Assembly: GCA_029260345.1 (NCBI GenBank)
Contig: JAJDDK010000005.1
Coordinates: forward strand, 124,001-188,000
Length of the DNA stretch: 64,000 bases
Source of the DNA: Phycisphaerales bacterium
GTDB taxonomy: Bacteria > Planctomycetota > Phycisphaerae > Phycisphaerales > UBA1924
Direction of reading: 5' to 3'
In this document: positions 28,705-64,000 of the stretch, piece by piece
Position numbering within the stretch: position 1 is the stretch's first letter
Layout of the letters: every line of letters starts with the position of its first letter
Program-made: the position numbers and the translations under genes
The notes under the pieces: generated by a model
The model's input: only the letters and a program-made list of their open reading frames with translations
What the model was told of the DNA's origin: nothing
Databases searched by the model: none

Positions 28705-29310
28705 TCAGCGTTTTCGACGCCTCATCATCGTTACCAATCCGGCGGTCCCAATCAGTCCAAGGCTTCCCGGAGCGGGAATGCTGTGAAACGTGACCGACAC
28801 ATCAGACCAGTCATGACGCGTCTGCGTGCCGAAGGTGTTGCTGAGAATGAACGTCCATTCGCCGCCGATGGATTCGCCGGGCGCGAACATCAGTCCGCCG
28901 GCGCCGGTCTGCCAGTGTGTGCTGGAATAGAACCCGGCCGAGGCGCTCATGCCGCCCTGGAATTCCCACGAGTTCGGTGCGCCTTCCGCGCCAAAGCCGC
29001 CGACGCTGAACGAAGCGCCGCTGGGCGCGAGCACATCCAGCCGCATGTCTGACGCATACGCATCGGTGTTCGCGAAGATCTCATCGAAGAAACCACTGAA
29101 CGTCATGCCGATGACGGGCTGACCGCCACTGAGATTGACGGTGAACGACGTTGATTCTGTCGCGCTGTCGTCGGGCCCAAGCTGGAACGAAGGAAGTGAA
29201 ACGACCACATCGAAGGCGGAGTTGTATCCCTCCGGCGCCGCGCCGATGTCTGCAGACGCGAGCCCGGGAAGGGCGGCGGTCGTCAGGATGATCAGGCTCA
29301 AACGCGACAT
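28705..29310 (-). CDS. Exported protein with PAPG-CTERM-type sorting tail
   Basis: A protein of 201 residues starting MSRLSLIILTTAALPGLASAD, with GGAG upstream and a signal peptide cut near ASA. The mature part is a beta-rich domain; the late block GGEWTFILSNTFGTQTRHDWSDVSVTFHSI resembles the P-domain jelly roll of proprotein convertases. The C-terminus IPAPGSLGLIGTAGLVTMMRRRKR has the PEP-CTERM-like design of a Pro-rich motif, a hydrophobic stretch and an arginine cluster, recognised by exosortase-type enzymes. A second such protein is at 62106. No exosortase gene lies in the window. Confidence 0.8.
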   Translation of the reverse strand: MSRLSLIILTTAALPGLASADIGAAPEGYNSAFDVVVSLPSFQLGPDDSATESTSFTVNLSGGQPVIGMTFSGFFDEIFANTDAYASDMRLDVLAPSGASFSVGGFGAEGAPNSWEFQGGMSASAGFYSSTHWQTGAGGLMFAPGESIGGEWTFILSNTFGTQTRHDWSDVSVTFHSIPAPGSLGLIGTAGLVTMMRRRKR

Positions 29311-29601
29311 GAGGACTCCTCTTCTCCTGCAAGCGGTCGTGTCTGCGCCGACCGGGGCGGTCTCGACGTCCGCTGTCGCGGACGTTTCCCTCTTACTCAG
29401 GTGCGGCGGACTCCACGGAGTTCCTCCCGCCGCACGATCCGCACAGCCGGCACAGACCGACCACTGCACTGGAAGACTGCCTCAAATTTGGCGGCATGCC
29501 ATTGTTTCTCGCGGAATCGTGGTTGTTTTTGTTGATTTCGCGTGGGTCCGAGAACGCCCGGTTCCTGTCCGGCGGCGCTGGAGCCGCTACGCTTGCAGGT
29601 C

Positions 29602-56855: not shown

Positions 56856-58346
56856 ATGACGCCGAACGAGCGGACAGCGCTGCTTCAGGAAATCAACGGC
56901 CACATGCGGCGCGGCGACATGGCGTCGGCGCGCCAGCCGGTGCAGTCGCTGCTCGACGCGAATCCCGACGATATCGATGGTCTCTCGATCGACGGAATCA
57001 TTAAGTATTCCACCGGGTTTCTCGACGAAGCAGAAGTAAACTTTCGGCGGTTGATTGAGTTGTATCCCGGTCGTCCGGAGGATCATTTCAATCTGGCGCG
57101 GCTTCTCACTCGAAGCGATCGCATCGAAGAAGCAATTGCGGAGTACGACGAGGCGCTGCGCTTGCGACCCGAGAATTTGAAACCGCTCGAAGGAAAGGCC
57201 CAATTGCTTGTGCTTGCGGATCGCAAGGACGAAGCGCGGGCGCTGCTTGAAGAGCAGATCAACAAAGGCGGCGATCTGCCGGGTTTTGGTCTGATTCTGG
57301 GAACCATTGAGGAACAAGCAGGTGATTACGAAGCGGCGGTGCGGATTGCGGAGAAATTTGCTGGGAGTTCCTCTGGTGATGCGCCGACGAATCGACAGTT
57401 GTTTCTGCTGCTTGGCCGCGCACTGGAGAAGCTGGAGCGCTACGACGATGCGTTTCGCGCCTTTCGGCGTGGCAAGGCGTACGGCGCCATGCCGTACGAC
57501 CAGGCGGGGTTTCGCGATCGCGTCGACCGGACGATCAAGATTTTCTCGAAGAAGAATCTGAAGTCGATGCCGAAGTCATCGCAGGACTCCGAATTGCCGG
57601 TGTTCGTGACGAGCATGCCGCGCTCGGGCAGCACGCTGGTGGAGCGCATCATTGGCGCCCACTCGCGCGCCAAGAGCGTCGGCGAGATCATCGTGATGCA
57701 TCGCGTCGCCATGGGTTCTGCAGAAACGCTGAAGACGCAGCGGCCCTATCCGGATTGCATCGAAACGACCACGCGCAAGGGGCTGGACACACTGGCGCGG
57801 CAGTATCTCGACGAGGCGGAAAAGCTGGCTGATGGCCACGATCGCATTGTTGATAAAACGCTTGAAACGTGGCAGCACGTAGGCCTCGTGCAGATGATGC
57901 TCCCCAACGCGCGGGTGATCAATGTGCGCCGGCACCCGATGGATACATGTTTGTCGTGCTATATGGCGGCGCTCAATCCAACGGTGCACACGTTCGCGTC
58001 GTCGCTTGAGGATCTCGCGGCGCACTATCGTGAATACGACCGGCTGTGCAAACACTGGGCGCAATCGGCGGGGATTGATTACATGGAGATCCGCTACGAG
58101 GATCTTGTGGATGATCAGGAAAAATGGAGCCGCGACATCATTGATTTCTGCGGCTTGGAATGGGAAGACGCGTGCCTCCAGTTCCACAAGAAATCATCCG
58201 GTTTGGTGCTCACGTTGAGCTACGACCAGGTGCGCCGACCGATTTACAAGTCAGCGCTGGATCGCTGGAAGCGATACGAGAAACAGCTTGATCCGCTACG
58301 CCGGTTGATCGGTGATCTCGTGGACGAGTATGACGCGGGCCGATGA
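56856..58346 (+). CDS. TPR-containing sulfotransferase
   Basis: A protein of 496 residues. The N-terminal half (about 1-230) has tetratricopeptide repeats with the W/L-x-x-L-x-x-x-y pattern (AIAEYDEALRLRPENLKPL; GDYEAAVRIAEKF). The C-terminal half is a sulfotransferase: the 5'-phosphosulfate loop PRSGSTLVERII (255-266), KTLETWQHVGLVQMMLP, and VINVRRHPMDTCLSCYMA with the 3'-phosphate motif. It would transfer sulfate from PAPS to a carbohydrate or protein, guided by the TPR domain. It ends 14 bases from the convergent halogenase-like gene. Confidence 0.9.
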   Translation: MTPNERTALLQEINGHMRRGDMASARQPVQSLLDANPDDIDGLSIDGIIKYSTGFLDEAEVNFRRLIELYPGRPEDHFNLARLLTRSDRIEEAIAEYDEALRLRPENLKPLEGKAQLLVLADRKDEARALLEEQINKGGDLPGFGLILGTIEEQAGDYEAAVRIAEKFAGSSSGDAPTNRQLFLLLGRALEKLERYDDAFRAFRRGKAYGAMPYDQAGFRDRVDRTIKIFSKKNLKSMPKSSQDSELPVFVTSMPRSGSTLVERIIGAHSRAKSVGEIIVMHRVAMGSAETLKTQRPYPDCIETTTRKGLDTLARQYLDEAEKLADGHDRIVDKTLETWQHVGLVQMMLPNARVINVRRHPMDTCLSCYMAALNPTVHTFASSLEDLAAHYREYDRLCKHWAQSAGIDYMEIRYEDLVDDQEKWSRDIIDFCGLEWEDACLQFHKKSSGLVLTLSYDQVRRPIYKSALDRWKRYEKQLDPLRRLIGDLVDEYDAGR

Positions 58347-58360
58347 CCGGCGCCGCGAAT

Positions 58361-60136
58361 TCACGTGTTCATCTTGATCGTGCCTGCGGCGCCGTGTTCT
58401 TCAAGCGTGCGCTGTGTGTCTGACGATTTGCGCACGAACTTGGAATCTTTGATGCTGATGTTCAGCACCGGGCGCTTTTTGTTCTTGCTGCGGATGACCC
58501 AGCCTTCCTGAATCAGAACTTCCAATGCCTGCATGCAGAAGACCAGCGCAAATTTCTGTTCGAACTGAGATGAATTCGACTGAAGCGTCTGGCGAAGCAG
58601 CTTGATGATCTCTTCTCCATCGCTGGTCGCTTGCAAAACGTCAATCACGATTTTGTACATGCCATGAAGAGGCAACTGCTTGCTTCCTTTTCTCCAGCAG
58701 TCGATCTGTATGATGCGCCCTTCACGGAGCATGCCCATGTACGCTTGTTCGGCGCCATGGAAATTGAGTTTGAAGACGTTGTAGCCATTGCAGAGAAGCT
58801 CGCATTCGCGTTCACGATCGTCGAAGAGCTCCAGCACTTGTTTGGCGCTGGCGATGTCAAACGATCCGAACGTCGGTAGTCCGAGCGATTCGGTCGTAAA
58901 GCCGCCCTGACTCAGCCAGCGCCACGCCTGATTGGGCGTCAGATTGACGCCGGCTTCCTTTGCGATGGCGCTGCAATGATCTTTCAGATCAGTGAAACAG
59001 CCGTTGGCGCTGTACCAATACTGGGCGAAGCGAATGTGCTGTTCGATGTTGGTGCGATTGCGATCGTTGTAGCGTCGGCGCAACCAATCGGCGTCCAGCT
59101 CGCCGCGTTCAAGTTCGAGAATGGTGTATGCCGCCTCACGGCCGGAGCCGTGCGCCAAGCTCATGCCCGCGGCGAGAATTGGATCGGCGAACCCGGCCGC
59201 CTCGCCACACAAGAACCAGTTCTCGCCAATGATTGTGTCTGCGAGGTGCGACCAGTCTTTGCAGGATTGAATGGGGCCTTCACGTTTGGCGTTGGCCGTG
59301 AGTTTTTTGATGGTTCCCTGGTCGTCGAGCGCCTGGAGGTAAAGCTCCTCCGGTGTCTTGCCGGATTCCTTGTAATACTCGCTCGGGCAGATCAGGCCGA
59401 TGCTGGTGCGCGTCGGCCCAAGTGGAATGAACCAGATCCAGCCGTACGGAAGGCTGCGCACCTGCACGCGCGTCGCGCCGACGCCGATTTCAACCGCCCA
59501 CTCCGCATTCTGCCAGTAGTCCCACACCGCGATATTGCGCAGCGTCTTGGGCGCCTGTGAACCAATGCCAAGCGCGCGGCGCAGCAGGCCAACGGTTCCG
59601 GAGCCGTCGATGTAATAGCGCGCCGTGATCACCTCGCCGGTGTGCAATCTGAAACCTTCAATGCGATCACCGTCGACGAGCACTTCTTCAACGCGCGTCT
59701 CCTCGCGCACTTCAACGCCCATTGACCGTGCTTTGTTCAGCAGGATTTCATCGTAGATCGCGCGATCGACCTGAAAGGCCGTGTGCTTGCGCTGCCCGTC
59801 GTACATCGCCGGGCGCGGCTCATCCTGCCACTTCTCCACGGGATAAAAATCAAAATCCCATTGGTCGGCGTCTCGCCCCCAGGTGTACGACGCGCCGATC
59901 TTGATCGGAAAGCCTGCGGCTTCCACATCATTCCACACGCCCATCTCATTGAGAATGGGGCTGATCGACGGCAGTTGACTCTCGCCAACGTGATCGCGAG
60001 GAAACTTTTCCTTTTCGAGGATGATGACGCTGAGGTCGGGATTGTATTTTTTCAAAAGGGTGGAGACGGTCGAACCGACCGGCCCGCCTCCGACAATCGC
60101 GACGTCATACATAAATGATTCCGTATTGGGCGTCAT
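58361..60136 (-). CDS. Flavin-dependent halogenase-like protein (copy 1)
   Basis: A protein of 591 residues. FAD-binding GGGPVGS opens the chain (VAIVGGGPVG, 12-20), DHVGESQLPSISPIL follows, then GFPIKIG with Lys79, the position of the essential lysine of tryptophan halogenases. YGWIWFIPLG (231-240) is a full WxWxIP halogenase motif. GEAAGFADPILAAGMSLAHG closes the FAD domain. A C-terminal extension of about 160 residues (after FGSFDIASAK) lacks a recognised fold. It thus fits flavin-dependent halogenases, probably of the variant-B type, or a related flavin enzyme that keeps these motifs. The tandem copy lies 41 bases upstream. No reductase partner is near. Confidence 0.78.
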   Translation of the reverse strand: MTPNTESFMYDVAIVGGGPVGSTVSTLLKKYNPDLSVIILEKEKFPRDHVGESQLPSISPILNEMGVWNDVEAAGFPIKIGASYTWGRDADQWDFDFYPVEKWQDEPRPAMYDGQRKHTAFQVDRAIYDEILLNKARSMGVEVREETRVEEVLVDGDRIEGFRLHTGEVITARYYIDGSGTVGLLRRALGIGSQAPKTLRNIAVWDYWQNAEWAVEIGVGATRVQVRSLPYGWIWFIPLGPTRTSIGLICPSEYYKESGKTPEELYLQALDDQGTIKKLTANAKREGPIQSCKDWSHLADTIIGENWFLCGEAAGFADPILAAGMSLAHGSGREAAYTILELERGELDADWLRRRYNDRNRTNIEQHIRFAQYWYSANGCFTDLKDHCSAIAKEAGVNLTPNQAWRWLSQGGFTTESLGLPTFGSFDIASAKQVLELFDDRERECELLCNGYNVFKLNFHGAEQAYMGMLREGRIIQIDCWRKGSKQLPLHGMYKIVIDVLQATSDGEEIIKLLRQTLQSNSSQFEQKFALVFCMQALEVLIQEGWVIRSKNKKRPVLNISIKDSKFVRKSSDTQRTLEEHGAAGTIKMNT

Positions 60137-60176
60137 TGGGCGTGCACTCGCGAGCGATGGTCCGCACGGGTCCGGA

Positions 60177-61952
60177 TCATGTATTGACCTTGATCGTGCC
60201 GGCGGCGCCGTGTTCTTCGATGGCGCGCTGAGTGTCCGCCGTCTTGCGCACGAACTTGGAGTCCTTGATGCTGATGTTCAGCATGGGACGCTTCTTGTTC
60301 TTGCCACGAATGACCCAGCCTTCCTGAATCATCACTTCCAGCGCCTGAACGCAGCGCACCAGTGCAAACTCCTGCTCAAATTCAGAGGAGTGTGACCGGA
60401 GCGCCTGCCGCAGGAGTTTGATCATCTCATCGCCGTCGCTCGTTGCATTCAGCACTTCAAGCACAATCTTGTAGATGCCGAAATTCGGGAGACGATTGGC
60501 GCCTTTTTTCCAGCATTCGATGCGCTCGACGCGACCATCGCGCATGAGTCCCATGTGGTCTTTTTCGGCGCCGTGCAAATTGAGTTTGAAGACGTTGTGC
60601 CCGTTGCACAGCAATTCGCACTCACGATTGCGATCGTCAAAGAGCTCAAGCAACTGCTTGGCGCTGGCGATGTCAAACGATCCGAAGGTCGGGAGGCCGA
60701 GCGATTCGGTCGTGAACCCGCCTTGACTGAGCCAGCGCCAAGCCTGGTTTGGCGTCAGGGAGAGGCCGGCCTCCTTGGCGATTTCCTGACAGTGTTCGCG
60801 CAGGTCGGTGAAGCAGCCGTTGGCGCTGTACCAGTACTGCGCGAAGCGGATGTGCTGCGCGATGTTGTTGCGATTGCGATCGTCATAACGAAGGCGCAGC
60901 CAGTCGGGGTCGATCTCGCCGCGTTCGAGCTCGAGAATGGTGTACGCCGCTTCGCGGGCGGAGCCGTGCGCCAGGCTCATGCCCGCCGCGAGGATCGGGT
61001 CGGCAAAACCGGCGGCCTCGCCGCACAGGAACCAGTTCTCGCCGACGATTTTGTCCGCGAGATGAGACCAGTCCTTGCAGGACTGGATCGGGCCTTCCTG
61101 CACCGCGTTCGCAGTGAGTTTCTGAACAGTCTCCTGCTCGCTGATGGCTTTGAGGTACAGCTCTTCAGGCGTCATGCCCGAGTTCTTGTAGTACTCACTC
61201 GGGCAAATGAGACCAATGCTGGTGCGCGTCGGACCGAGCGGAATGAACCAGATCCAGCCGTAGGGAAGACTGCGCACTTGCACGCGCGTGGCGCCGACGC
61301 CGATCTCAACGGCCCACTCCGCGTTTTGCCAGTAATCCCAAATGGCGATGTTGCGCAGTGCTTTGGGCGCGACGGATTCGATGCCCAGCGCGCGGCGCAT
61401 CAATCCGACGGTTCCGGAGCCATCCACGTAGTGCTTGGCCGTGATGACGTCGCCGGTGTGCAGTTTGAAGCCATCGACGCGATCGTCGGTGATCATGATC
61501 TGTTCGACGCGCGTTTCTTCGCGCACCTCAACACCCATCGCCTTGGCTTTGTTGAGAAGAAGCTCGTCGTAGATGGCGCGATCGACCTGAAAGGCCGTGT
61601 GCGTACGCTGCCCTTCGTACTTCGCGGGGCGCGGCTCATCCTGCCATTTTTCAACCGGATAGAAATCAAAATCCCACTGGTCCGCGTCTTTGCCCCACGT
61701 CAGCGACAGGCCGATCTTGATCGGAAAGCCCGCGGCTTCCACATCGTCCCAAACGCCCATTTCCTGAAGAATGGGCATGATCGACGGGAGCTGGCTCTCG
61801 CCGACGTGGTCGCGCGGGAACTTCTCCTTTTCGATGATCACGATGCTGAGATCGGGGTTGTATTTCTTGAGCAGGATGGCGACGGTCGTGCCCGAGGGCC
61901 CGCCGCCGACAATCGCTACGTCGTACGAATTCGCCTGACCGTTCTGGATCAT
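60177..61952 (-). CDS. Flavin-dependent halogenase-like protein (copy 2)
   Basis: A protein of 591 residues starting MIQNGQANSYDVAIVG at 61952, with GGAGGA upstream; a GTG six codons earlier is possible. It is roughly four fifths identical to copy 1 by eye and shares every motif at the same position: GGGPSGT, ESQLPSIMPIL, Lys79, WIWFIPLG and GEAAGFADP. The C-terminal 160 residues are also conserved. Equal length and tight spacing point to a tandem duplication followed by divergence. The two genes are probably co-transcribed (gap 40 bases). Substrate specificity is unknown, as neighbouring genes offer no natural-product cluster. Confidence 0.78.
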   Translation of the reverse strand: MIQNGQANSYDVAIVGGGPSGTTVAILLKKYNPDLSIVIIEKEKFPRDHVGESQLPSIMPILQEMGVWDDVEAAGFPIKIGLSLTWGKDADQWDFDFYPVEKWQDEPRPAKYEGQRTHTAFQVDRAIYDELLLNKAKAMGVEVREETRVEQIMITDDRVDGFKLHTGDVITAKHYVDGSGTVGLMRRALGIESVAPKALRNIAIWDYWQNAEWAVEIGVGATRVQVRSLPYGWIWFIPLGPTRTSIGLICPSEYYKNSGMTPEELYLKAISEQETVQKLTANAVQEGPIQSCKDWSHLADKIVGENWFLCGEAAGFADPILAAGMSLAHGSAREAAYTILELERGEIDPDWLRLRYDDRNRNNIAQHIRFAQYWYSANGCFTDLREHCQEIAKEAGLSLTPNQAWRWLSQGGFTTESLGLPTFGSFDIASAKQLLELFDDRNRECELLCNGHNVFKLNLHGAEKDHMGLMRDGRVERIECWKKGANRLPNFGIYKIVLEVLNATSDGDEMIKLLRQALRSHSSEFEQEFALVRCVQALEVMIQEGWVIRGKNKKRPMLNISIKDSKFVRKTADTQRAIEEHGAAGTIKVNT

Positions 61953-62105
61953 GGGGCTCTCTTCCTCCACCCGGGCGCGTCAACCACCGCCGCGACGCCG
62001 GGAGGACAAGTCTACCCCACGCGGCGACGGGTTCCAGCGTCGAAGTGATTGCCGCGGGAGCGGTTGCCCGCACAACCGGAACGGGTTTTCGGACGGGTGT
62101 TGGCC

Positions 62106-62648
62106 TTAGAAGCGGCGGCGGCGGGCGCTGAAGGCGCCAAGGGCGAGAAACGCCGTGGCGCCGGTTCCGGGCGCTGGTGTATAGCCCTTCCCCGGCCCTT
62201 GGATGTTCATTTCGAAATTTGAAAAGACGCTGGGGATTTCGTCTGCGGAAAAATCATTTGTGACGGTGACCGTCCAAAACCCGGCGCCGCTCAGGCCATC
62301 GACAGCGATGTTGTCTCCATACGTCCCGGTTGGTCCTGAGCCAGGGCCGTCATATGAAACTGGCAATCCCTGATTATCGTGACCGGCAATTGAAACGGAA
62401 TTGGAATTCGGGTCAGTGATCGTGATTTGCAGATCGGACGCCCACGAACTGTCGCCGGGGTTGAACCAATCAAAATTCCAATTGCATCCCGACATCGAGC
62501 CGGAAACACCAACTGAAAACGAAACGCTTTCACCGCCGGCGAGTTCAAAGGGCCCAATCTGGGAAAAGTAGACGTCGGCCTGAGCCGCGGTGGTGAAACC
62601 AGCGGCAAATCCGGCGAGGGTGATGGCATTCATGGATCGCTGGCGCAT
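62106..62648 (-). CDS. Exported protein with PAPG-CTERM-type sorting tail
   Basis: A protein of 180 residues. The ribosome site AAAGGAGG, at ideal distance from the ATG, is one of the best in the window. A signal peptide ends near TAAQAD. The mature part is a beta-rich domain (ASDLQITITDPNSNSVSIAG; FWTVTVTNDFSADEIPSVFS) similar in outline to the P-domain-like part of the protein at 28705. The C-terminus TPAPGTGATAFLALGAFSARRRRF has the Pro-rich motif, hydrophobic helix and arginine cluster of PEP-CTERM-type signals. The sorting enzyme is not in the window. Confidence 0.8.
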   Translation of the reverse strand: MRQRSMNAITLAGFAAGFTTAAQADVYFSQIGPFELAGGESVSFSVGVSGSMSGCNWNFDWFNPGDSSWASDLQITITDPNSNSVSIAGHDNQGLPVSYDGPGSGPTGTYGDNIAVDGLSGAGFWTVTVTNDFSADEIPSVFSNFEMNIQGPGKGYTPAPGTGATAFLALGAFSARRRRF

Positions 62649-62758: not shown

Positions 62759-64000
62759 TTAGCCCCAATTGGCCAGCAGGGCCGCGAGGTCCCCGCCGTT
62801 CACGATTCCGTCACGGTTGAGATCCGCTGGTCCTCCGGGTGCGTTCCACTGCGAAAGGAGCGAGGCAAGGTCGGCGCCATCAACGATCCCGTCGCCGTTG
62901 AGGTCGCCTGGCGTCGCTCCTACGCACGAATCGATCATTCCATCGTTGTCCAAATCGAGTCCTGGGTTCACAAGGATCTGTTCAAGATCGATCTGGTCGT
63001 TGTGGTCGCAATCCAGCAGCGGGCCGGAGTACTTCTCGAGGAACATTTGAAAGTCAACGATGTCAAGGACGGAGTTCCCGTCAAAGTCCATGATTTCGCA
63101 TCCCGGCTCGTATGTGCCGCGGAAGAAGTGCGTGAGGTAGACAAAGTCATCGAGGTCGACCACGTCGTCATCGTTCGGGTCACCGAGGCGTTTTGCGGGA
63201 ATCACGTTCCATGTCTTGCCGGCGCTGACGCCTGCGACCGTTCGCGTGATGGCGCCGGGCCAGATGGTGGTGATCTCATCAATCGCTTCATCATCGTCGC
63301 CGAGGCCGATGTGCAGGACGAGTTCATCCTGTGATTTCCAGCTCGTGCCGGAGTACACCTCGCGGTAGTAGTGCTTCGTCCCGACGCGCACATCCAAGAT
63401 GGCGCCGATGGCGTTCTTGTTCGCCTTCATTCCAAGCACTCTCAGCTTGATCCAGTTTCGCTTTTCACCCTCGTGATTGACGTAGAGCCGAATGGGCGCT
63501 GAACTGCCAAATTGTTGACTCGACGTCAGAATGTCGAGGTCGCCGTCGTTGTCGATATCTGCGACGGCTGAGCAGAACGACTGATTTGTGGATTCGTCCA
63601 CGCCGAGCTGTCCGCCCATATTGACCATTGGCCACGAGCCAGTGCCGACGTAGAGTGGGCTCGGCCCGATCATATCCTGCACGAAGAGGTCAGAGATGCC
63701 GTCGTTGTTGTAATCGAAAAAGTTCGCGCCCCAGCCGACGCCGTACATCCCCACACCAGCGGCGACCGTTTGGTCACTGAAGGTCTTGTCGCCGTTGTTC
63801 ATGAGGAGGAAATTGCCCGGCTGCGTGTTCGTGGCGTACAGATCCGGATAGCCGTTGCCATCGAGGTCTCCGACGGCGACGCCCATTGAATTGGCGCAAA
63901 TGCCGGCGCCGGATGCATCCGTCACGAGAACAAACTGCCCATTCACATTCTCATGCAGCTCATTGCGCCACCCGCCGCCGGGGGCGCAATTCAAGCCCAT
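62759..64000 (-). CDS. Large exported FG-GAP/UnbV protein with dockerin-like tail, truncated by window edge
   Basis: Only the C-terminal 413 residues are in the window; the reading frame continues past the right edge, so the ATG at 64000 need not be the start. The visible part has FG-GAP/VCBS repeats (VGDLDGNGYPDLYATN; FFDYNNDGISDLFVQD; ADIDNDGDLDILTSS), a complete ASPIC/UnbV domain (NWIKLRVLGMKANKNAIGA ... LHIGLGDDDEAIDEITTIWPG), then several calcium loops (DPNDDDVVDLDD, DFDGNSVLDIVD, DLNGDGIVDGAD, DLNRDGIVNGGD). It ends LAALLANWG, the planctomycete dockerin-like tail. It is a secreted or surface calcium-binding protein of unknown role. Confidence 0.85.
   Translation of the reverse strand: MGLNCAPGGGWRNELHENVNGQFVLVTDASGAGICANSMGVAVGDLDGNGYPDLYATNTQPGNFLLMNNGDKTFSDQTVAAGVGMYGVGWGANFFDYNNDGISDLFVQDMIGPSPLYVGTGSWPMVNMGGQLGVDESTNQSFCSAVADIDNDGDLDILTSSQQFGSSAPIRLYVNHEGEKRNWIKLRVLGMKANKNAIGAILDVRVGTKHYYREVYSGTSWKSQDELVLHIGLGDDDEAIDEITTIWPGAITRTVAGVSAGKTWNVIPAKRLGDPNDDDVVDLDDFVYLTHFFRGTYEPGCEIMDFDGNSVLDIVDFQMFLEKYSGPLLDCDHNDQIDLEQILVNPGLDLDNDGMIDSCVGATPGDLNGDGIVDGADLASLLSQWNAPGGPADLNRDGIVNGGDLAALLANWG

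Follow-up and report, generated by a model that had tools for sequence, protein, structure and literature searches.

What would a tandem pair of halogenase-like flavoenzymes act on in a bacterium in which no biosynthetic gene cluster lies beside them? The question is posed by two genes, A and B, on the minus strand of a 64,000-nucleotide (nt) stretch of contig JAJDDK010000005.1 (positions 124,001 to 188,000; Phycisphaerales bacterium, assembly GCA_029260345.1), and this whole stretch is called the window below. Halogenases are known mostly from small-molecule pathways and from a handful of peptide antibiotics. We propose, at a probability of about 0.5, that A and B encode peptidyl-tryptophan halogenases acting on a ribosomally made protein, for which the candidate in the window is a PEP-CTERM-like protein encoded by the neighbouring gene. 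The locus presents genes, motifs, a modelled fold and a recurrent gene neighbourhood, and from these we infer halogenation, tryptophan as its target and a binding role for the C-terminal domain. A preliminary description of the window had listed a protein among several conceivable substrates; on the strength of the upstream gene, this is now the best-supported guess.

Two flavoenzymes with a halogenase signature

The pair, its signature residues and its C-terminal domains are placed as follows (ORF, open reading frame; pLDDT, predicted local distance difference test; pTM, predicted template modelling score; dN/dS, ratio of nonsynonymous to synonymous divergence).

60177..61952, minus strand: putative halogenase B, 591 residues from ATG; ORF, PF04820 at 119.5 bits (cut-off 21), structure model with pLDDT 88.2 and pTM 0.91.
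58361..60136, minus strand: putative halogenase A, 591 residues, tandem sister of B; ORF, PF04820 at 127.3 bits, 81% identical to B, dN/dS 0.11.
61716..61718, minus strand: Lys79 codon of B, proposed catalytic lysine; K in 95 of 95 members, column shared with halogenase references, coordinates by arithmetic.
59900..59902, minus strand: Lys79 codon of A; same column as in B (A/B offset 0), coordinates by arithmetic.
61239..61256, minus strand: WIWFIP (WxWxIP) of B, residues 233-238; W233, W235, I237 and P238 in 95 of 95 members.
60177..60695, minus strand: C-terminal domain of B, residues 420-591 plus stop, winged-helix-like by a domain-only model (pLDDT 88.8), Foldseek and VIA-align.
58361..58879, minus strand: C-terminal domain of A, 76% identical to that of B.

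The earlier account of two equally long frames, some four fifths identical and 40 bases apart, is borne out by an ungapped alignment in which 479 of 588 positions are identical and by the 40 nt that separate the ORFs. An in-frame GTG at 61970 is an alternative start for B that would give 597 residues. Relatives were collected with two search patterns, which confirmed at least 238 loci; the best 80 were taken, 94 members were read (93 full-length), and one partial member was left out of the resulting 95-row alignment. The halogenase signature is intact in both proteins, comprising GGGPxG at the flavin adenine dinucleotide (FAD) site, Lys79 within GFPIKIG, and WIWFIP. Alignment columns 16-21 mostly read G-G-G-P-x-G, with three rows gapped there, and none of the 95 rows departs from Lys79 or from the fixed letters of WxWxIP, a count that for WxWxIP is biased by selection, one search pattern having spanned WxWxI; Lys79 lay outside the search patterns. 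Three members from another planctomycete family carry WxWYIA (P238 to A) and retain the lysine. The functions of both elements in flavin-dependent halogenases are described in the excerpted text of PMC5945002.

As controls, three QhpG and three LodB-like sequences were fetched; the latter score under the LodB family cut-off, and one LodB-like row (L100; loci of relatives are numbered with an L) was left out. Glutamine replaces Lys79 and WAWMAR replaces WxWxIP in the three QhpG proteins, and the two remaining LodB-like proteins have WWYxxA and no lysine. Three references, namely a CmlS, an enediyne-cluster halogenase and a Nostoc relative, retain both elements. The solved relatives closest in sequence are, best first, FasV (8zop), PltA, ChlB4, CmlS, Mpy16 and CndH. 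The structure model, built from 82 aligned rows, has CmlS, FasV and CndH as its top Foldseek matches, and VIA-align places CndH best (Z 44.7 over 383 residues). No NCBIfam profile reaches its cut-off: CmlS (NF033113) is best, with 179.3 and 173.2 bits for the pair against 900, QhpG (NF049967) is second, with 121.4 and 123.4 against 240, and geranylgeranyl reductase (TIGR02032) gives 94.2 and 96.4 against 158.8. Geranylgeranyl reductases or hydroxylases as nearest homologues had been named earlier as the finding that would undo the halogenase call; the nearest solved structures are halogenases. Judged by these sequences, A and B are very probably flavin-dependent halogenases, and halogenation is favoured over hydroxylation or reduction because the lysine and WxWxIP are kept here and both are missing from the QhpG and LodB-like controls. 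The source genome has two PF01613 flavin reductase genes, both on other contigs.

A and B are the only two matches in the 3.4-megabase source genome. In a single FastTree run of 103 rows they are sisters with local support 100, and a Nei-Gojobori script gives a synonymous divergence of about 1.08 for the dN/dS listed above. By their sister position and this ratio, the pair is a lineage-specific duplication maintained by purifying selection. Two or more copies within about 1.3 kilobases (kb) occur at 13 of the best 80 loci. Together with the sister relationship, such runs look like repeated local duplication; the two substrates or the heterodimer once read into the retention of two copies are conjectural. 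The substrate may have shifted between A and B, since they differ at residues 82 and 84 of the modelled strand that bears Lys79 (A82/Y84 in A, L82/L84 in B).

The C-terminal extension had been described as conserved in both proteins. The A/B identity agrees with this; family-wide, conservation is only weak, with a mean column identity of 26% and one invariant glycine over 82 rows. Modelled alone, the domain forms a sheet followed by three helices. Foldseek returned CmlS first (E 0.016). VIA-align, restricted to Foldseek candidates and treating Z below 8 as possibly due to chance, ranked mainly leader-binding domains highest (TbiB1 at Z 7.3; NisB, TbtB and MibB at 6.8; PqqD at 5.7), followed by methyltransferase and carbamoyltransferase domains, CmlS at Z 3.6 and QhpG at Z 3.3. 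Profiles for PqqD-like domains or for recognition elements of ribosomally synthesized and post-translationally modified peptides (RiPPs) gave no match above noise in Pfam or NCBIfam; a PqqD-related NCBIfam model matched one of 82 members, at E 0.22. A sequence link between the extension and CmlS was also considered and was rejected, no similarity being found. The modelled fold is suggestive of a winged-helix-like domain whose nearest, weak matches are RiPP leader-binding domains and the C-terminus of CmlS.

These results bear on whether the pair might be protein-modifying flavoenzymes of the QhpG kind, which would hydroxylate or otherwise oxidise tryptophan without halogenating it. QhpG is the second NCBIfam hit and has a weak structural match to the C-terminal domain; excerpts of PMC7876137 describe it as having a C-terminal winged helix and acting on peptidyl tryptophan. 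The score is only about half of the QhpG cut-off, however, and the three QhpG sequences lack the lysine and WxWxIP that 95 of 95 family members keep, and we regard a QhpG-like activity as improbable.

The upstream surface protein and its tryptophan

Along the minus strand the order is surface protein, B, A, and two features of the first gene are of interest.

62106..62648, minus strand: 180-residue secreted PEP-CTERM-like protein, candidate substrate; ORF, 153 nt upstream of B on the same strand.
62424..62450, minus strand: SSWASDLQI motif with Trp69, candidate halogenation site; motif scan, coordinates by arithmetic.

Homologues of this protein lie upstream of the halogenase, on the same strand, at three of the nine other loci of the clade (L016, E 2.4e-15; L014; L013). 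They stand about 200-240 nt before the halogenase start, all three retain W-A-S-D, and the L016 homologue exceeds the Pfam cut-off for PEP-CTERM. A hidden Markov model (HMM) of our own scores the window protein at 19.5 bits (E 6e-4), the best of 2000 shuffles reaching 11.6, and by sequence the protein appears remotely related to the P-domain. A second PEP-CTERM-like protein is encoded at 28708-29481 of the window, far from the halogenases; it joins the candidate substrate family in the second search round (E 1.5e-31). No repeat precursor peptide was found in the window.

A similar tryptophan recurs beside relatives in other phyla. In Alteromonadaceae the gene upstream of the halogenase encodes a P-domain protein with EHTWIGDL. 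Among the neighbour proteins, PF01483 is over its cut-off at L046, L013 and L008, with no match at L009. The motif [HSN][TS][WY]..[DNE]L.[IVLM] occurs in 13 ORFs among 2.97 million six-frame residues from 81 loci, 10 of which have a halogenase on their own strand no more than 273 nt away. In a second, partly overlapping set of 45 loci, eight of nine motif hits adjoin a halogenase, two of the eight repeating earlier loci. Overlaps of the later sets with earlier loci include L107 and L125, which repeat L013, and L168, which repeats L040. Further motif neighbours occur at L008, L009, L156, L158 and L161, and our own HMM added L049. Gaps in the second set, in the set of this HMM and for the homologues of the window protein were measured to the open frame and not to the start codon. 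At L156 (1070-3823), three P-domain genes stand in a row just before the halogenase, each with HTW[AV]GDL.

An HMM built from planctomycete P-domains that had been fetched regardless of halogenases found 12 ORFs in 151 loci, all beside a halogenase or in a P-domain run beside one. At the motif site, the P-domains beside halogenases have tryptophan in 10 of 10 cases (two L013 repeats left out), or in seven of seven loci with L046 and L050 merged. In 40 background P-domains, from 30 loci in genomes without a halogenase match, the residue is tryptophan in six, tyrosine in 17, phenylalanine in seven and another residue in 10; the first pattern used for this count gave five of 37 and the second six of 40, with unchanged odds. 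Fisher tests of the excess give p = 8e-7 against the 40 domains and 3e-5 by loci, relatedness being ignored. The related genomes without a halogenase match had no tryptophan in eight readable P-domains of 10 taken. Elsewhere in halogenase-bearing genomes the count was likewise zero of 10 (10 of 13 PF01483 matches, seven genomes), and P-domain proteins as targets in trans were rejected on this count.

If A and B are peptidyl-tryptophan halogenases, the reaction would run as follows. Reduced flavin (FADH2) supplied by a separate reductase would react with O2; the flavin hydroperoxide would oxidise chloride or bromide to hypohalous acid; and this would reach Lys79, which would hand the halogen to an indole ring. 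This route through hydroperoxide, hypohalous acid and lysine is the established chemistry of flavin-dependent halogenases. The ring would belong to a tryptophan in a ribosomally made protein, in the window that of SSWASDLQI in the secreted PEP-CTERM-like protein, and the winged-helix-like domain would hold the polypeptide, much as leader-binding domains do in peptide-modifying enzymes.

Several points weigh against this proposal. No export signal is visible by eye in the enzymes, and the surface protein would thus have to be modified before it is exported. At residue 322, within the DPxxxxG loop, three halogenase references have serine, and A and B have alanine (alanine in 65 and serine in 30 of the 95 rows). 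Every fold match of the C-terminal domain has Z below 8, and no sequence match of that domain to PqqD or to the CmlS C-terminus was found. The candidate substrate has no Pfam P-domain match and scores weakly with our own HMM, and no homologue of it at E<1 was found at six of the 10 clade loci (L011, L012, L015, L018, L019 and L020). The position of the neighbour varies: mostly upstream on the same strand, it is downstream at L008, L009 and L049 and on the opposite strand at L158 and L161. When loci are merged wherever their halogenases have any identical 40-residue stretch in common, a neighbour with the tryptophan motif within 950 nt is present in only 16 of 92 groups: nine of 61 planctomycete or other groups, five of six cyanobacterial, two of two proteobacterial and none of 23 armatimonad groups. 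Four ORFs farther away than 950 nt also match these patterns, and three of the four are additional copies within the same runs. Finally, part of these data is where the motif first came to notice, and the patterns for the 92 groups were set with the data in view. Such after-the-fact choice matters less for the homology in near relatives and for the tryptophan excess at the P-domain site. For most family members the target may lie elsewhere or be a different one.

A different account takes the surface-protein neighbour to be incidental and A and B to be variant-B type halogenases whose substrate, a small molecule either free or carrier-bound, is the product of dispersed genes. FasV, ChlB4 and CmlS are enzymes of small-molecule pathways, as are the other closest characterised relatives, PltA and CndH; CmlS too has a C-terminal domain, the first Foldseek hit of the extension; and the tryptophan-motif neighbour is missing from most relatives. 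The excess of tryptophan at the P-domain site and the upstream partner common to three relatives argue against it, as does the genomic setting. All PP-binding (three) and ketosynthase (six) matches of the source genome are on other contigs, and no assembly-line genes were found among the Pfam-scanned window neighbours, which are part of the window's genes. The earlier remark that no biosynthetic gene cluster is nearby thus stands, and a carrier-protein or polyketide context was rejected. We consider this account unlikely.

Cyanobacterial relatives and the wider family

Ribosomal substrates of another form are suggested by the cyanobacterial relatives. At six cyanobacterial loci the halogenase is preceded on its own strand, at a distance of 69-270 nt, by a peptide with HTWTENL[DEN]I[ASC] repeats; four more loci (one repeating L040) have the repeat peptide, and an eleventh has HTWTETLDIS. 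Upstream of the peptide, at 11 of 12 cyanobacterial loci (10 of 11 distinct), each with a tryptophan-repeat peptide, is an AetD-like gene; the exception is Okeania L034, at which none was found. The full set of AetD-like diiron enzyme, tryptophan-repeat peptide and halogenase is seen at L040 (8679-9823), L045, L048, L051, L056, L060, L166, L167, L169 and L170; at L167 (1501-3204) the halogenase match has one in-frame TAA, and the other two genes are open. The 47 repeat units were picked by HTWTEN, which makes these letters constant by construction, and five units (L168) are doubly counted. In several peptides the incomplete repeats at the two ends have no tryptophan. Beneath the constant amino acids the DNA varies at silent positions, which points to a translated, selected sequence. 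Within 4 kb of halogenases outside cyanobacteria no peptide with tryptophan-containing repeats was found, and the non-cyanobacterial loci searched yielded no AetD homologue.

The L040 AetD-like protein matches AetD at E 2e-49 and, with positions counted by hand, keeps all six iron ligands (D76, H79, E140, H172, E176 and H179) given in the excerpted text of PMC10654658. According to that text, AetD makes an indole nitrile from bromotryptophan and tryptophan, and it binds tryptophan by its free amino and carboxyl groups. This counts against a shared peptide substrate, as the tryptophan would need to be released, or the peptide is not a substrate of both enzymes. It fits instead with halogenation of free tryptophan or a simple indole, the product passing in cyanobacteria to the AetD-like enzyme while the repeat peptide serves as regulator or scaffold; the AetD homologue beside the halogenase at 11 of 12 loci agrees with this as well. 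Such a scheme, however, leaves unexplained the recurrent tryptophan of the repeats and the P-domain and PEP-CTERM neighbours in other phyla, and we think it has little chance of being right.

Extended to the whole family, the peptidyl-tryptophan proposal becomes more tentative, and we rate it well below an even chance: a widespread, undescribed halogenase clade would modify tryptophans of P-domain-like PEP-CTERM surface proteins, as a post-translational modification dedicated to them, and its cyanobacterial branch would have made of a similar sequence signature a multi-core peptide whose halogenated tryptophan feeds an AetD-like nitrile synthase. If true, common environmental bacteria would use halogenation to modify proteins, with the genes for enzyme and substrate side by side. 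The occurrence of the repeat peptide together with the AetD homologue suggests that halogenated indole nitriles could be of ribosomal origin. In open-licence papers, searches on halogenases with Planctomycetes or Phycisphaerae, RiPP recognition elements, tryptophan-halogenated RiPPs, and PEP-CTERM or proprotein convertase gave, among the papers listed, no title or abstract on this family.

Named loci among the best 80 include Phycisphaerales, Armatimonadota, Cyanobacteria (Okeania, Microcoleus, Trichormus), Alteromonadaceae and Pelagimonas. The pair is no chance finding: counting the source genome itself, a match is present in eight of 199 sampled planctomycete genomes (E<=1e-60), and within its taxonomic family 41 of 100 genomes have one (E<=1e-100); with a cyanobacterial query, five of 244 cyanobacterial genomes match (E<=1e-90). 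Phages gave no match to the halogenase query, and none of 88 matching plasmid records spans 80% of it.

Other neighbours were set aside or are simply recorded. A TPR protein with a Sulfotransfer_3 domain (56856-58346, convergent with the pair) was considered as a functional partner. This gene type is also near relatives at L053, L080, L089 and L090 and flanks several armatimonad relatives, and it is treated as background because the L053 and L080 genomes carry 14 and 22 such genes (E<=1e-20). Seven armatimonad relatives (L044, L058, L073, L077, L080, L082 and L090) have a prepilin-like gene upstream, from which several of them are separated by a small lipoprotein-like gene; a same-strand prepilin within 450 nt upstream occurs at seven of 24 armatimonad loci. 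The prepilin-like and LacI genes beside armatimonad relatives were rejected as partners, no common tryptophan motif being seen by eye. Upstream of the pair and on its strand, from 62759 to the window's end at 64000 and onward (L123, 1760-8042), are three proteins that each have a dockerin match, two of them FG-GAP/UnbV-ASPIC proteins. Phycisphaerales relatives at L017, L022, L023, L024, L026, L032 and L036 have the same polysaccharide-type neighbours in conserved order, mostly with triosephosphate isomerase on the other side.

Comparison with known systems

The catalytic domain resembles that of FasV, PltA, ChlB4 and CndH (Z 37-45, 27-31% identity over 362-383 residues), and the sequence alignments with the first three cover the lysine and WxWxIP region. 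With all four, the structural match stops at model residues 426-476 and leaves most of the C-terminal domain of A and B uncovered. CmlS, the best NCBIfam profile, matches in structure over model residues 10-563; its setting differs, being a chloramphenicol-type cluster, none of which is present among the window neighbours scanned. PltA and CndH act on carrier-bound substrates, according to the excerpted text of PMC5945002.

QhpG, a peptidyl-tryptophan dihydroxylase, has an FAD domain followed by a C-terminal winged helix, a plan that the modelled folds here resemble, and acts on a peptide tryptophan (excerpts of PMC7876137); unlike A and B, its three sequences have neither the lysine at position 79 nor WxWxIP. 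AetD, the indole nitrile synthase of the aetokthonotoxin pathway, is represented by the homologues that adjoin the cyanobacterial relatives, one of which, when aligned, keeps the six iron ligands. In the known pathway the substrate of AetD is made by AetF, a single-component halogenase (excerpts of PMC11611611), and the word 'peptide' is absent from the main text of that paper.

The nearest parallels in function would be MibH, SrpI, MppI and ChlH, which carry out flavin-dependent tryptophan halogenation in ribosomal peptides, SrpI and MppI in a leader-dependent manner (excerpts of PMC12615548). Compared by description only, their substrates are lanthipeptides, peptides with nitrile-hydratase-like leaders and lasso peptides, whereas the neighbours here are PEP-CTERM or P-domain proteins or tryptophan-repeat peptides. 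Thus, peptidyl tryptophan halogenases are already known as a kind, and it is the clade, its C-terminal domain and its neighbours that, within the reach of the literature searches, appear new.

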